Below are positions 32,097-45,862 of a stretch of DNA of 64,000 nt, piece by piece. Position numbers and translations under genes: made by a program. The notes below the pieces were generated by a model that was not told where the DNA came from, searched no databases, and saw nothing but the letters and a program-made list of their open reading frames with translations. The DNA lies in contig NZ_JAKGSI010000003.1 in assembly GCF_021568315.1 (NCBI RefSeq), forward strand, positions 248,001 to 312,000, read 5' to 3'. Position 1 is the first letter of the stretch; each line of letters opens with the position of its first letter. Source of the DNA: Corynebacterium uropygiale (GTDB taxonomy: Bacteria > Actinomycetota > Actinomycetes > Mycobacteriales > Mycobacteriaceae).

Positions 32097-32996
32097 ATGA
32101 CTATGCCTGATCGTTTTGCTGCTGGCGCCGTGGACCTGGGCCAGGTGAAGGCCCGGGCCGAGGCCAAGGAGAAGTCCGCCTCGCAGCCGGCGGGAAGTAT
32201 TCCCAGCTCCATTACCGTGACGGCAGAGAACCTGGAAGCCGAGGTCCTGCGCCGGAGCCTCCAGGTGCCGGTCATCGTGCTGATCGGTACCGGGCGCAGC
32301 CCCGAGTCCGAGCAGCTGCGCACCGACCTCTCGGAGCTGGCGGAGGCATCCCGGCGCGGATTCATCTTTGCTTACGTCGACGCCGACGCCACCCCGCAGG
32401 TCGCCCAGGCCTTCGGCGTCCGCGGACTCCCGACGGTCCTCGTCCTCGCCGGAGGGCGCCCGCTGACGAGCCTCGAGGGCGGCCAACCCCGCCAGGTGCT
32501 CGAGCAGTGGACCCAGCAGATTGTCAGCCAGGTGGGATCGCAGCTGGAAGGCCTCCCGCCCGAGGAGGGAAGCGAGGAGGCCGAGGAGGCCCGCGATCCG
32601 CGCTTCGATGAGGCCGAGTCCGCCGCAGGCTCCGAGGACTACGCCCGCGCGCTCTCCCTCTACGTGGACATCCTCGAGGATGATCCCGAGAATCGCGATG
32701 CCCGCCAGGCCCGCCACCAGATTGAGATCCTCCAGCGGATGAGCGAGTCGGAAGGGGAGGACCCCATCGCCGCCGCCGACGCCCACCCGGAGGACTTCGA
32801 CGCGGCCCGCGCTGCCGCCGATGCGGAGATCGCGAACGGCGACCCGGAGGCGGCCTTCCGTCGGCTCATCGCCTTCCTCCGCGGGCCGGAGCGTGACGCG
32901 GCCCGGGCCCGTCTCCTCGAGCTCTTCGAGCTCTTCGATGCGGGCGACCCGCGGGTGCTGGCTGCCCGAGGACAGATGGCCAGCGCGCTGTTTTAG
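32097..32996 (+). CDS. YbbN/CnoX-like thioredoxin-fold protein with TPR region
   Basis: The 299 residues have a thioredoxin fold (LQVPVIVLIGTGRSPESEQL, FAYVDADATPQVAQAFGV, RGLPTVLVLAGGRP) and then helical repeats (DYARALSLYVDILEDDPENR, ANGDPEAAFRRLIAFLR). The position of the redox CxxC is occupied by GRSPES, so it cannot act as a disulfide enzyme. This is as in YbbN-type holdases, which protect and hand over unfolded proteins. GGAGGA precedes the ATG. The presumed cis-proline (GLPT) is kept. Confidence 0.85.
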   Translation: MTMPDRFAAGAVDLGQVKARAEAKEKSASQPAGSIPSSITVTAENLEAEVLRRSLQVPVIVLIGTGRSPESEQLRTDLSELAEASRRGFIFAYVDADATPQVAQAFGVRGLPTVLVLAGGRPLTSLEGGQPRQVLEQWTQQIVSQVGSQLEGLPPEEGSEEAEEARDPRFDEAESAAGSEDYARALSLYVDILEDDPENRDARQARHQIEILQRMSESEGEDPIAAADAHPEDFDAARAAADAEIANGDPEAAFRRLIAFLRGPERDAARARLLELFELFDAGDPRVLAARGQMASALF

Positions 32997-33300: not shown

Positions 33301-33330
33301 TTGAGGGATAAGTAAGGAATTGTGTATATT
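33301..33330 (+). promoter_or_regulatory. Promoter of the repeat-protein gene
   Basis: TTGAGG (33301-33306) and TATATT (33325-33330) with 18 bases between. The predicted start near 33337 gives a leader of about 46 bases with GAGAGG before the ATG. Confidence 0.5.
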
Positions 33331-33382: not shown

Positions 33383-33826
33383 ATGGACTTCTTGCTTCAG
33401 ATTCAGGACATCGTCGAGGGCCCGATCAAGGACCTTCTCGTTCAGCTGCACACCGCGGTTCCCCAGTTCAACCTGGTGACCCCGCCCCCGGTGAACGTCG
33501 AGCTGCCGAAGGAGCTCAACATTGGCTCCACCGTCGGTGACGTGAACGCAGGCTCGACCTTTGGTGACATCCTGGGCGGCGCTGGCTCCTCCAACCTCTT
33601 CAACAACGACGGCTCCACCGCTGGTGACATCCTCGGTGGCGCTGGCTCTACCGCTGGTGACATCCTCCCGGGTGCTGGTTCCACTGGCACCACCGGTGAC
33701 ATCCTGGGCGGCGCTGGCTCCTCCAACTTCCTCAACCAGGACGGCTCCTCCGACCTCAAGCTCCCTGAGGTCAGCAGCTCCGGCATGGGTGAGATCATCA
33801 AGGGCCTGATGGGCAGCAGCAAGTAA
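33383..33826 (+). CDS. Small Gly/Ser/Asp-repeat protein, possibly a cell-envelope protein
   Basis: I do not recognise this 147-residue protein. The ATG at 33383 has GAGAGG seven bases upstream; a longer frame from 33320 has no ribosome site. Residues 1-29 (MDFLLQIQDIVEGPIKDLLV...) look like an amphipathic helix, not a signal peptide. A short segment PPPVNVELP follows. From about residue 50 to 125 come repeats of GST-x-GDILGGAGS, two of them extended by SN(L/F)(F/L)N(N/Q)DGS. The end is GMGEIIKGLMGSSK. There are no Cys or Trp. Codons are strongly restricted to the set used by the atp genes, which suggests high expression. It stands alone, with its own promoter region and terminator. Small signal-less corynebacterial porins and mycolated proteins share this style, but no homology is claimed. 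Confidence 0.75.
   Translation: MDFLLQIQDIVEGPIKDLLVQLHTAVPQFNLVTPPPVNVELPKELNIGSTVGDVNAGSTFGDILGGAGSSNLFNNDGSTAGDILGGAGSTAGDILPGAGSTGTTGDILGGAGSSNFLNQDGSSDLKLPEVSSSGMGEIIKGLMGSSK
33563..33727 (+). repeat. Duplicated 33-bp unit within the repeat-protein gene
   Basis: The 33 bases at 33563-33595 recur identically at 33695-33727 and encode GDILGGAGSSN. Between them lie two shorter, diverged copies (GDILGGAGS and GDILPGAGS). Confidence 0.9.
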
Positions 33827-33851
33827 CTTCTTTAAGGCTCCGCGCCCGAAG

Positions 33852-33886
33852 ACACCCCCGGTGAGAATGTTTCTCACCGGGGGTGT
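33852..33886. terminator. Hairpin between convergent genes
   Basis: A perfect 16-bp stem, ACACCCCCGGTGAGAA / TTCTCACCGGGGGTGT, with loop TGT. It lies between the repeat-protein gene and the convergent glgB and could serve both. The T-run is weak on both sides. Confidence 0.75.
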
Positions 33887-33925
33887 TGCTGTGCTCCGGG
33901 CCCCGCAGAGCGGGGCGCGTGCGCC

Positions 33926-36133
33926 CTAGGCGCGGCGGAGGCGGTAGTACTGGGTACTCATCGCCGGGATGTGGAGGTGGAGCGAGTGGGGTTGGTTGTC
34001 CCAGCCTGCGTCGACAGTGTGGACGCTGCCAGGCAGGTCATTGCCCGCGCCCTGGTAGACGGCCGCATCCGTGTTGAGGATGAGGTCCCAGTCGCCTCCC
34101 ACGGGCAGCCCGAGGATGTAATCCGGCTGGGAGGTGCCGCCGAAATTGTTGACGGCGAGGATCGCGGAGCCGTCCGTGCCCCAGCGGATGTAGGCGAGGA
34201 TGTTATTCGCCGCGTCGTCGGCCTTGAGCCACTGGAAGCCGGCGGGCTCGAAGTCCTGGGTGTGGAGCGCGGGCTCCTCGCGGTGGAGTCGGTTGAGGTC
34301 GCGGACGAGGAGCTGGATGCCGGCGTGGTACTCGCCTTCCCAGCCTTCGGCGTCGTCGAAGGGGAGGGAGGTGGCCTCGGACCACTCGGAGATCTGGCCG
34401 AATTCCTGGCCCTGGAAGAGGAGCTTCTTCCCGGGGTGGGAGTACATGTAGCCGTAGAGGCTGCGCAGACCGGCGGCCTTGTTCCAGGTGTCGCCTGGCA
34501 TGCGCGTCCAGAGGGATCCCTTGCCGTGGACGACCTCGTCGTGGCTGAAGGGGAGGACGTAGCGCTCCGAGTAGGCGTAGACCATGGAGAAGGTGATCTC
34601 GTTGTGGTGGTAGGAGCGGTGGATGGGGTCGAGCCCGAAGTAGCGGAGGGTGTCGTTCATCCAGCCCATGTTCCACTTGAGGGAGAAGCCAAGACCATCG
34701 GCCCAGGTGGGGGCGGTAACCCCCGGCCAGGAGGTGGACTCCTCCGCGATGGTGAGGATCCCCGGGTAGAGGCGGTGGGCGGTGGCGTTAACCTCCTGGA
34801 GGAACTGGACTGCCTCGAGGTTCTCCCGGCCGCCGTACTCGTTGGGCAGCCACTCGCCCTCGTTGCGTGAGTAGTCCAGGTAGAGCATGGAGGCGACGGC
34901 GTCGACGCGGATGCCGTCGATGTGGAACTCCTCCATCCAGTAGAGGGCGTTGGCGACGAGGAAGTTGCGCACCTCGCGGCGGCCGAAGTCGAAGACGTGA
35001 GTGCCCCAGTCGCGCTGCTCGCCGCGGCGCCAGTCCGGGTGCTCATAGAGGGCGGGCCCATCAAAGCGGGCGAGGGCGAAGTCATCCTTGGGGAAGTGCC
35101 CGGGCACCCAGTCCATGATGACCCCGATGCCCCGCTGGTGGAAGGCGTCGATGAGGCCGCGCAGCTCGTCGGGGCTGCCCCAGCGGGCCGTCGGAGCATA
35201 GTAGCCGGACACCTGGTAGCCCCAGGATCCGCCGAAGGGGTGCTCCGCGACGGGGAGGAACTCCACGTGGGTGAAGCCCTGCTCGGCGACATAATCGACG
35301 AGCTCCGTCGCCAGATCCGCGTAGGTCTTCCCCTGCTTCCAGCTGCCGAGGTGGACCTCGTAGATGCTCATCGGCTCGCTGGCGACATCGCGGTGCGGCC
35401 GGCGCTCCATCCATTCGGAGTCGCCCCACTCGTGGGTGCTCTCCGCGACGATGGACGCCGTTCCCGGGGGAACCTCGGCGGCCTTGGCCAGCGGGTCGGC
35501 CTTCTCCTTGCGGGTGCCATCCTGCGTGAGGATGGCGAACTTGTACCGGGCGCCAGCGTGGACGTCAGGGAGGAAGATCTCCCAGACACCCGTCGACCCC
35601 AGGGCGCGCATGGGGTGCTGGGCCGGGTTCCAGCCGTTAAAGTCGCCGATCAGCGCGATGGAGGCGGCATTCGGCGCCCAGACCGCGAAGGAGGTGCCCG
35701 AGACGGAGCCCATGGTGGTCTCGTAGGTGCGGGGGTTCGCGCCGAGGACCTCCCACAGGCGCTCGTGGCGGCCCTCGTTGATGAAGTAGAGGTCCTGCTC
35801 GCCGAGGCTGGGGAGGAAGTGGTAGGGATCCGCCGTGATGACCGGCGTATCGCTGCCGGGCCAGGTGATGGCGAAGCGGTAGTCGGCGGAATCGCGCCTC
35901 TCCAGCGAGGCGATCCAGATGTCATCGCCGACCGGGGTCATGTCGATCCCGGTGCCGTCGATGAGGAGCTCGACGTGCTCAGCGCCGATGTGCCGGGTGC
36001 GAATCACCGAGCCCTCGGGCGTCGAGTGCCACCCGTAGAAGTCGTGGGGCGCCCAGTGGCTGCAGTTGCGGAGGTGATCGAGATCCGCGGCGGGGATGTA
36101 ATCAGCGGGATGGAGCTGTGCTGGATCACTCAT
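33926..36133 (-). CDS. glgB: 1,4-alpha-glucan branching enzyme
   Basis: Introduces alpha-1,6 branches into linear alpha-glucan. The 735 residues comprise an N-terminal domain, a CBM48 domain (GTSFAVWAPNAASIALIGDFN), and a GH13 barrel with VEFLPVAEHPFGGSWGYQV, DGIRVDAVASMLYLDY (catalytic Asp) and TIAEESTSWPG (catalytic Glu). AGCAGGA precedes the ATG. It follows glgE after 56 bases, so the maltosyltransferase and branching steps are co-expressed. Confidence 0.96.
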   Translation of the reverse strand: MSDPAQLHPADYIPAADLDHLRNCSHWAPHDFYGWHSTPEGSVIRTRHIGAEHVELLIDGTGIDMTPVGDDIWIASLERRDSADYRFAITWPGSDTPVITADPYHFLPSLGEQDLYFINEGRHERLWEVLGANPRTYETTMGSVSGTSFAVWAPNAASIALIGDFNGWNPAQHPMRALGSTGVWEIFLPDVHAGARYKFAILTQDGTRKEKADPLAKAAEVPPGTASIVAESTHEWGDSEWMERRPHRDVASEPMSIYEVHLGSWKQGKTYADLATELVDYVAEQGFTHVEFLPVAEHPFGGSWGYQVSGYYAPTARWGSPDELRGLIDAFHQRGIGVIMDWVPGHFPKDDFALARFDGPALYEHPDWRRGEQRDWGTHVFDFGRREVRNFLVANALYWMEEFHIDGIRVDAVASMLYLDYSRNEGEWLPNEYGGRENLEAVQFLQEVNATAHRLYPGILTIAEESTSWPGVTAPTWADGLGFSLKWNMGWMNDTLRYFGLDPIHRSYHHNEITFSMVYAYSERYVLPFSHDEVVHGKGSLWTRMPGDTWNKAAGLRSLYGYMYSHPGKKLLFQGQEFGQISEWSEATSLPFDDAEGWEGEYHAGIQLLVRDLNRLHREEPALHTQDFEPAGFQWLKADDAANNILAYIRWGTDGSAILAVNNFGGTSQPDYILGLPVGGDWDLILNTDAAVYQGAGNDLPGSVHTVDAGWDNQPHSLHLHIPAMSTQYYRLRRA

Positions 36134-44488: not shown

Positions 44489-45862
44489 GTGAGCACCCTG
44501 GCCATGATTTCTTTGACGGACAGCAGGGCGGAGGGATTCTTCGTCCTGCTGGTCACGATTCCCCTCCTCCTTTTTCTTCTCATCGGGGTGCGTCGACGAC
44601 GCCGAACGGCCCTCATCGTGGCGCTCGTTCTCGCCGCGGTGCTGTCGCTCCTTGCGTGGCTCATCGTGGAGAAGTGGTGGCGGCCCTTCCCGGATGCGCT
44701 GCCGTGGCGGATCTGCGCGGCGGTGGCCTCGAGCCTGGCCCTCTTCATCGGGGTGTGGGTGTACCGGGGGAGGAGGGTGCTGACCGCGGTGCTCTGTGCG
44801 CTCTCCATCGTGGGGACGTGGGGGCTCATCAATGTCCAATACCAGCAGTTCGCGACAGTGGAGTCCCTCGACCCCGAGCCGGTGAGTAGCCACATGGATC
44901 TCCCCGCCTTCCAGGCGCTGCGCTCCGCACCCCGCCAGAACGGGCGGACGGTGGGGGCGCTCGTCACGCTCCCCCTGCCCGGGTATCCCGCCGCGGAGGG
45001 CGGCTCCGCATTCCCCGCCCGCGACGCCGTGGCTTATGTCCCGCCCGCCTATTGGGAGCACCCGGAGATCGCGCTGCCCGTCCTCGTCCTCCTGGCCGGC
45101 AACCCCGGGGAGCCGATGGATTGGTTCCGCGACGGCCAGGGCGAGGACACCGCGGACCGCTACCAGGCCCAGCACGGCGGGGTGGCCCCCATCATCATCA
45201 GTGTCGACGGCACGGGCAGCTGGGCGGGCAACCCCATCTGCGTCGACGGACCCGAGCTCAAGGTGCGTACCTACCTGGAGAAGGACGTTCCCCGGCGGGT
45301 GAAAGAGACCTTCCGGGTCAATGAGGACACTCGCACGTGGACGATCGGCGGGCTGAGCTACGGAGGCACGTGCTCGCTTCAGGTGGTGGCGAACTCCCCG
45401 CAGGTGTACGGCTCCTTCCTCGACTTCTCTGGTCAGGCCGAGCCGACGGTGGGGGAGCACCGGGCCACCGTCGAGCAATTCTTCGGCGGCAGCGAGGAGA
45501 AGTTCCAGGCCGTCAACCCCGAGGCCCTCCTCACGAAGGCCGCGGGCACGGACACGTATGCGGGGATCGGGGGCCGCTTCATCGCCGGGAGCGCGGACGG
45601 GGAATCCGTCGCTGCCCTGCGCCACCTCCACGAACTCGCCGGGGCGGCGGGAATCTCCTCGACGATGGAAACCGTCCCCGGCGCGCATTCCTTCCAGGTG
45701 TGGCGTCGGGCGCTGGCGGACACCCTTCCCTGGGTCGCGGAGCGCGGCGGGCTGGCAGGCGTGCCAGCCGTCGGCACGGCACCCGCCACCACCCCAGGAC
45801 CCCACGCCGTGAATGACCCGGCCGGTCAGGCTAGTGTGCAGGAGAAAGGAACGGAGAAGTGA
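44489..45862 (+). CDS. Membrane-anchored esterase (Esterase D/mycolyltransferase fold)
   Basis: The 457 residues begin with three to four membrane helices (within 1-125) and then an alpha/beta hydrolase domain. VLVLLAGNPGEPMDWF, IIISVDGTGSWAGNP and the nucleophile elbow TIGGLSYGGTCSLQV (Ser near residue 290) mark the PF00756 group; PGAHSFQVW gives the His. The hydrolase part should face outside the membrane. Its stop overlaps the start of the MprF-like gene (TGATG). In C. glutamicum an esterase paired with an aminoacyl-lipid synthase has been linked to aminoacyl-phosphatidylglycerol turnover (recalled, not checked), so removal of the amino acid is the likely role. Confidence 0.8.
   Translation: MSTLAMISLTDSRAEGFFVLLVTIPLLLFLLIGVRRRRRTALIVALVLAAVLSLLAWLIVEKWWRPFPDALPWRICAAVASSLALFIGVWVYRGRRVLTAVLCALSIVGTWGLINVQYQQFATVESLDPEPVSSHMDLPAFQALRSAPRQNGRTVGALVTLPLPGYPAAEGGSAFPARDAVAYVPPAYWEHPEIALPVLVLLAGNPGEPMDWFRDGQGEDTADRYQAQHGGVAPIIISVDGTGSWAGNPICVDGPELKVRTYLEKDVPRRVKETFRVNEDTRTWTIGGLSYGGTCSLQVVANSPQVYGSFLDFSGQAEPTVGEHRATVEQFFGGSEEKFQAVNPEALLTKAAGTDTYAGIGGRFIAGSADGESVAALRHLHELAGAAGISSTMETVPGAHSFQVWRRALADTLPWVAERGGLAGVPAVGTAPATTPGPHAVNDPAGQASVQEKGTEK

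Follow-up and report, generated by a model that had tools for sequence, protein, structure and literature searches.

Between a ybbN-like gene and glgB in Corynebacterium uropygiale lies a small gene, and the question it raises is what kind of protein it encodes and where in the cell that protein belongs. The gene is part of the window, by which we mean the whole 64,000-nt stretch of DNA analysed, from a genome of 2.46 Mb (G000). The first-pass annotation of this DNA had suggested a new mycomembrane protein acylated at its Gly-Ser-Ser/Thr sites.

A solitary gene encodes a Gly/Ser/Asp-repeat protein

The gene stands alone and is convergent with glgB. The features of the locus are listed below, each with its evidence; A1 denotes an alignment of 20 rows of family N-termini.

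33383..33826, + strand: coding sequence of the 147-aa protein, stop included (ORF; family profile matches in 34 of 242 genus genomes)
33383..33448, + strand: conserved N-terminal module, residues 1-22, a putative export/assembly helix (alignment A1)
33449..33520, + strand: Pro-rich linker, residues 23-46 (sequence; A1, with P27, P35 and P42 each conserved in 90% of the rows or more)
33521..33823, + strand: residues 47-147, the Gly/Ser/Asp repeat tail, whose nine GS[ST] motifs are candidate sites of O-mycoloylation (motif counts, shuffles, DNA repeats)
33301..33330, + strand: promoter-like site TTGAGG-18-TATATT (AT content; motif; similar TATATT stretch upstream of the G132 orthologue)
33851..33887, no strand assigned: 17-bp hairpin between the convergent coding sequence and glgB, a probable terminator (folding)
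32097..32996, + strand: thioredoxin/TPR (YbbN-like) neighbour, outside the system (Pfam PF14561, PF00085)
33926..36133, - strand: glgB, glycogen branching enzyme neighbour, outside the system (NCBIfam NF003811)

We place the start at the ATG because relatives start at that position, which disfavours an alternative upstream TTG start (168 aa). The resulting protein of 147 residues lacks both Cys and Trp, as first described. The Gly/Ser/Asp repeats with two extended copies are likewise borne out: GS[ST] occurs nine times (residues 48, 57, 68, 77, 88, 99, 112, 121 and 144) and GDIL four times (residues 61, 81, 92 and 105), and none of 2000 tail shuffles contained nine GS[ST] motifs (mean 0.64, maximum 4). 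At the DNA level, the repeats comprise four 44-nt copies with 68-84% identity to the first copy, and two 58-nt copies with 91% identity. The amphipathic N-terminus that had been described is moderate only, because the hydrophobic moment of residues 2-20 is above the shuffle mean (0.39 vs 0.21) with a p-value of 0.06. By eye, a signal peptide is absent; residue 2 is acidic, and neither a basic n-region nor a cleavage site is seen. The AlphaFold2 prediction was uninformative (pLDDT 52.5, pTM 0.14), a Pfam search gave a single sub-threshold match for the protein (E 0.49), and NCBIfam gave no match for it.

The annotation had also read the codon set as that of a highly expressed gene. When CAI was calculated against groEL2, the gene ranked sixth of 15, directly above atpA (gene names by eye). 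Because this bias is moderate, it lends high expression little backing. The AT-rich promoter region of its own does stand, with 51% AT upstream of the gene vs 33% for the window and the promoter-like site listed above. Downstream, the hairpin that had been counted at 16 bp is present with 17 pairs. It folds at -40.5 kcal/mol (61 nt folded; z -6), has no T-run and was not picked up by a consensus terminator scan. Elsewhere in the window, at 45032-45733 (+) (L136), a PF00756 esterase (mycoloyltransferase-fold) domain lies within an ORF of 457 aa, the start of which appears by eye to span the membrane.

The protein belongs to a family found in Corynebacterium

Of 242 genomes of the genus, 33 were matched by a single-sequence search and 34, at 37 places, by a profile of 20 N-termini (best E 7e-27, counting the rows from which the profile was built). 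G216 (E 9e-4) was found by the single-sequence search only, and G126 and G203 by the profile only. Three genomes (G030, G088 and G111) have two copies each, and a contig scan confirmed one relative, in C. mastitidis. Matches were confined to this one genus: among 301 genomes from 31 genera of the same taxonomic family, none of the 30 other genera had a match. No family match was found by tblastn against plasmids and phages, no Pfam or NCBIfam family matched above cut-off, and a PDB profile search with the family returned 0 matches. The annotation had proposed looking for homologues at the same ybbN-like/glgB locus, but conserved synteny there can be rejected, since G132 alone among 35 related loci has it.

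The conserved part of these proteins is their start. In A1, M1, V11, P14 and D17 are invariant, and I7, I15 and L18 are present in at least 90% of the rows. Overall length ranges from 61 to 324 aa, tail length and repeat unit vary by lineage, and the 28 members analysed for composition are acidic, most of them with few Lys/Arg residues. The second copies in G111 (L095, 64 aa) and G030 (L096, 61 aa) have a Cys-Cys pair, and other members are mostly Cys-free. The lack of a named family is the only point in favour of a chance ORF or relic. Conservation of the start and module in 34 genomes, together with a GC3 of 0.82 for the window gene, make that explanation scarcely credible. A search of open-licence literature, covering titles and the starts of abstracts with supplements outside its scope, found no description of the family. 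We conclude that it is probably a new family within the signal-less mycomembrane proteins, built from a 22-residue start and a lineage-specific Gly/Ser tail.

Some relatives of the gene adjoin cmt1 or sit in the porin locus

In the window genome, the family gene shows no linkage to cmt1 or groEL2. In five other genomes (G098, G108, G123, G171 and G201), the order is lpd, family gene, cmt1 (lpd named by eye), with cmt1 in the same orientation and starting 105-121 nt past the stop of the family gene. A hairpin lies between the family gene and cmt1 in this group, so the two may not share a transcript. The lpd of the group is 83-84% identical to that of G000. In C. glutamicum, protein O-mycoloylation is reported to be the work of the Cmt1 isoform (PMC11066868), and the Cmt1 orthologue of G000 matches PDB entries named Cmt1 (4h18, 8qhf) with an E of 4e-141. 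Two further genomes, G238 and G239, have a PS1-like mycoloyltransferase 1.8-3.8 kb upstream of the family gene.

The lpd-cmt1 gap of the window genome has a 40-aa ORF with one GSS in place of the family gene, and a similar GST-bearing ORF of 36 aa adjoins cmt1 in G132. These ORFs are a further candidate small mycomembrane protein.

L177:4413-4535 = G000:C1:243412-243534, + strand: 40-aa GSS ORF beside cmt1 (ORF)
G132:C1:375562-375672: 36-aa GST ORF beside cmt1 (ORF)

A second envelope-linked position is the groEL2-linked porH/porA locus described in PMC3792995. The family gene adjoins groEL2 in G102, G144 and G145, at the porHA site of relatives. In G144 and G145 it follows groEL2 at a distance of about 860 nt, with both genes in the same orientation. 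In G102, the one genome in which ppk2 was confirmed on the far side, it is on the opposite strand between groEL2 and ppk2. G102 and its relative G001 are collinear to the end of groEL2 and again from ppk2. In between, G001 has about 1.2 kb containing porHA; in its place G102 has a segment of about 4 kb containing the family gene. When PorH and PorA profiles were run across these stretches of G001, G102, G144 and G145, only G001 matched.

Because the gene adjoins cmt1 or sits in the porin locus in some relatives, it probably encodes a lipid-modified mycomembrane protein. These loci also bear on whether the protein is instead cytosolic and intrinsically disordered, with a stress or scaffold role. 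The signal peptide that the eye does not find and the lack of a confident AlphaFold2 structure would fit such a protein. Known signal-less mycomembrane proteins equally have no signal (PMC12632848), however, and eight carrier genomes have the gene at envelope-linked loci, so we consider a cytosolic role quite improbable.

PorH and PorA matches are scarce in carriers of the family

The exchange at the porHA locus raises a separate proposal, compatible with a lipid-modified mycomembrane protein, that the family forms pores and takes over from PorA/PorH. We built PorH and PorA profiles from ORFs of the groEL2 interval; their rows come mostly from non-carriers of the family (21 of 24 and 20 of 24, by eye). 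In a trial of these profiles, the best E among 35 control loci was 0.066, the positive set including rows that built the profiles. PorH matched 165 and PorA 144 of the 242 genomes. PorH matches were found in 7 of 34 carriers vs 158 of 208 others (Fisher 8e-10), and PorA matches in 5 of 34 vs 139 of 208 (Fisher 1e-8).

The groEL2-ppk2 gap points the same way: of the 24 carriers in which it was resolved, 14 have a gap of 127-335 nt, and none of the 18 resolved non-carriers has one below 835 nt. In this sample, 6 of 30 carriers and 12 of 30 non-carriers gave no resolved gap and 4 of the 34 carriers lay outside it; the 30 non-carriers were picked by hand rather than at random, with one contig each and two in one case. 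Ten Pks13-positive carriers (G123, G108, G201, G171, G138, G127, G167, G060, G084 and G178) have an interval of 127-203 nt, which has no room for porHA.

Phylogeny tempers this association. A quick-method GroEL2 tree covering 60 genomes requires the family label to change 12 times, 5 of them forced by supported branches. The 5 independent pairs on supported branches divide into 2.7 for the association, 0.6 opposed and 1.7 without difference (median p 0.6), so that after correction for phylogeny it leans positive without reaching significance. The absence of PorH and PorA from carriers may also be overstated, because the profiles are made mostly from non-carriers and miss a divergent porHA-like pair that the window genome has in its own groEL2-ppk2 interval, the family gene being elsewhere; neither profile matched anything in G000. 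Phylogeny and the composition of the profiles thus weaken the absence of PorH as proof of replacement. PorH does have matches in seven carriers, and the long acidic tail is unlike a helical porin of 45-57 aa. We therefore regard pore formation as fairly unlikely, and as a weaker proposal than that of export, acylation and anchoring.

The pair in the G000 interval (G000:C5) consists of L102:6072-6308 (-) and an ORF upstream of it, signal-less small ORFs of 84 and 78 aa. The 78-aa ORF carries GSS twice, like the motifs of the window protein. A second ppk2 has a 39-aa ORF next to it, L101:4556-4675 (-) (G000:C4), which has a good ribosome-binding site, looks amphipathic by eye and may encode a further small envelope protein.

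GS[ST] motifs co-occur with Pks13 and Cmt1

We examined the tails of 36 of the 37 family members, the G144 copy being identical to that of G145. GS[ST] was present in 31 of 31 tails from genomes with Pks13 and in 0 of 5 tails from genomes without Pks13 and Cmt1. For Pks13 we used NF040607 and counted as absent no match or an E worse than 1e-18 (taken as a cross-match), with the table read by eye; on this measure, 14 of 242 genomes are without it. Two of these, G190 and G236, are incomplete assemblies (53% and 77%) yet have a Cmt1-like protein. The other 12 have weaker, paralogue-like Cmt1 matches (E 2e-21 to 7e-42). These 12 genomes (G005, G006, G083, G088, G090, G091, G124, G126, G137, G195, G203 and G235) have neither Pks13 nor a Cmt1 orthologue, yet other mycoloyltransferase-like matches occur in them.

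Four of the 12 (G088, G126, G137 and G203) carry the family, with five proteins, and their Cmt1 matches are of the paralogue-like kind only (E of the 4e-36 to 4e-37 type). By comparison, all 30 Pks13-positive carriers have a Cmt1-like match with an E of 1e-68 or better and 44-100% identity, orthology being judged from these matches. G000 has Pks13 above cut-off and a Cmt1 orthologue; 4 of the 34 carriers are without both. Because the Pks13-less carriers form one supported clade on the GroEL2 tree, their lack of GS[ST] may have arisen just once. Among the five proteins, two have the same sequence, and the tail composition of these members predicts 0.04-0.20 GS[ST] by chance. Five Pks13-positive members have a single GS[ST], and that of G167 is not above chance (8 members shuffle-tested).

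Retention of the family in four genomes that have neither Pks13 nor a Cmt1 orthologue means that it is of use in the absence of mycolates. Such retention, with tails free of GS[ST], would fit an exported surface or wall protein that is not mycoloylated and whose Gly/Ser tail serves as a flexible spacer or O-glycosylation substrate, and the acidic, mostly Lys/Arg-poor composition would suit one too. A mere spacer would not, however, predict GS[ST] in all examined members from Pks13-positive genomes, adjacency to cmt1 or a position in the porin locus, and we consider a surface protein without mycolate unlikely.

A proposed route to the mycomembrane

Taken together, the adjacency to cmt1, the groEL2 position, the co-occurrence of GS[ST] with Pks13 and the scarcity of PorH suggest a mycomembrane protein modified by Cmt1. 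We consider it reasonably likely that the window gene encodes such a signal-less protein, O-mycoloylated by Cmt1 at the GS[ST] motifs of its tail. Published O-mycoloylation sites are for the most part serines with Gly, Ala or Ser nearby; they lie in flexible stretches, and a protein often has several of them (PMC11066868). Because the GS[ST] repeats fit these preferences, we propose export via the module, acylation by Cmt1 and anchoring. The conserved 22-residue start would act as an address for export and assembly, comparable in use to the signal-less starts of PorA, PorH and ProtX. A flexible Gly/Ser tail would follow, and Cmt1 would acylate its GS[ST] motifs with mycolic acid. The mycolate would then anchor the protein in the mycomembrane and might tie it to the wall. 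We infer that export, acylation, location and function of the family protein are probably of this kind. The suggestion of a new mycomembrane protein with acylated Gly-Ser-Ser/Thr sites is thus partly supported, gaining independent genomic support from cmt1 in five genomes, groEL2 in three and the absence of GS[ST] from the clade without Pks13 and Cmt1; homology to PorA/PorH is not detectable.

More tentatively, the family may be modular throughout. The 22-residue helix alone would be the export address, the fast-evolving tail would be a multi-site mycolate anchor matched to Cmt1, the gene would drop into the porin and lpd-cmt1 slots and take over from PorA/PorH, and the mycolate-less lineage would have kept the module without the acylation motif. 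We hold this extended version to be possible, and rather doubtful as a whole.

How signal-less proteins cross the inner membrane to the corynebacterial outer membrane is described as an open question (PMC12632848), and O-mycoloylation is reported to have no strict consensus sequence (PMC11066868). This family, whose module is short and strongly conserved, whose GS[ST] sites are repeated and which in nature occurs both with the sites and the enzyme and without them, would make export and the specificity of O-mycoloylation directly testable. The 22-residue module is portable to a reporter, and the Cmt1-dependent mycolate mass shift in C. glutamicum is 478, 504 or 530 Da (PMC5310785). The family could also help explain permeability in species without recognisable PorA/PorH.

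Comparison with known systems

The PE_PGRS proteins of mycobacteria have a conserved N-terminal helical module and a fast-changing Gly-rich tail. Our family likewise joins a module to a variable Gly-rich tail, and an outer-membrane destination would be an analogy; the module is much shorter here. Membership of PE/PPE was rejected for want of a PE/PPE Pfam match at E up to 1, and RTX Ca-binding repeats were rejected in the same way, with no haemolysin-type nonapeptide match at E up to 1.

The closer comparison is with PorA, PorH and ProtX, which have no recognisable signal (PMC12632848). The same source describes PorH and ProtX as assembled at the surface of the poles and porins as modified by Cmt1. 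In ProtX the mycoloylated residue is Ser37, the earlier of the two serines that end the protein, and the PorH site lies within NFSS (PMC5310785). We compared the family with ProtX (Cg2875, C. glutamicum) by description: a start that by eye has no signal is shared and ProtX has its Ser site, but ProtX is only 38 aa long. Homology to PorA and PorH was rejected, since hhalign of A1 gave a probability of 1.4% with PorA and 0.2% with PorH. PorA and PorH are also a pair, whereas the family is a single gene for proteins of 61-324 aa with tails. The family nevertheless resembles them in being small and, by eye, signal-less, in its Ser pairs and in its groEL2-linked position in three carriers, and, like them, it would be expected to be a Cmt1 substrate.
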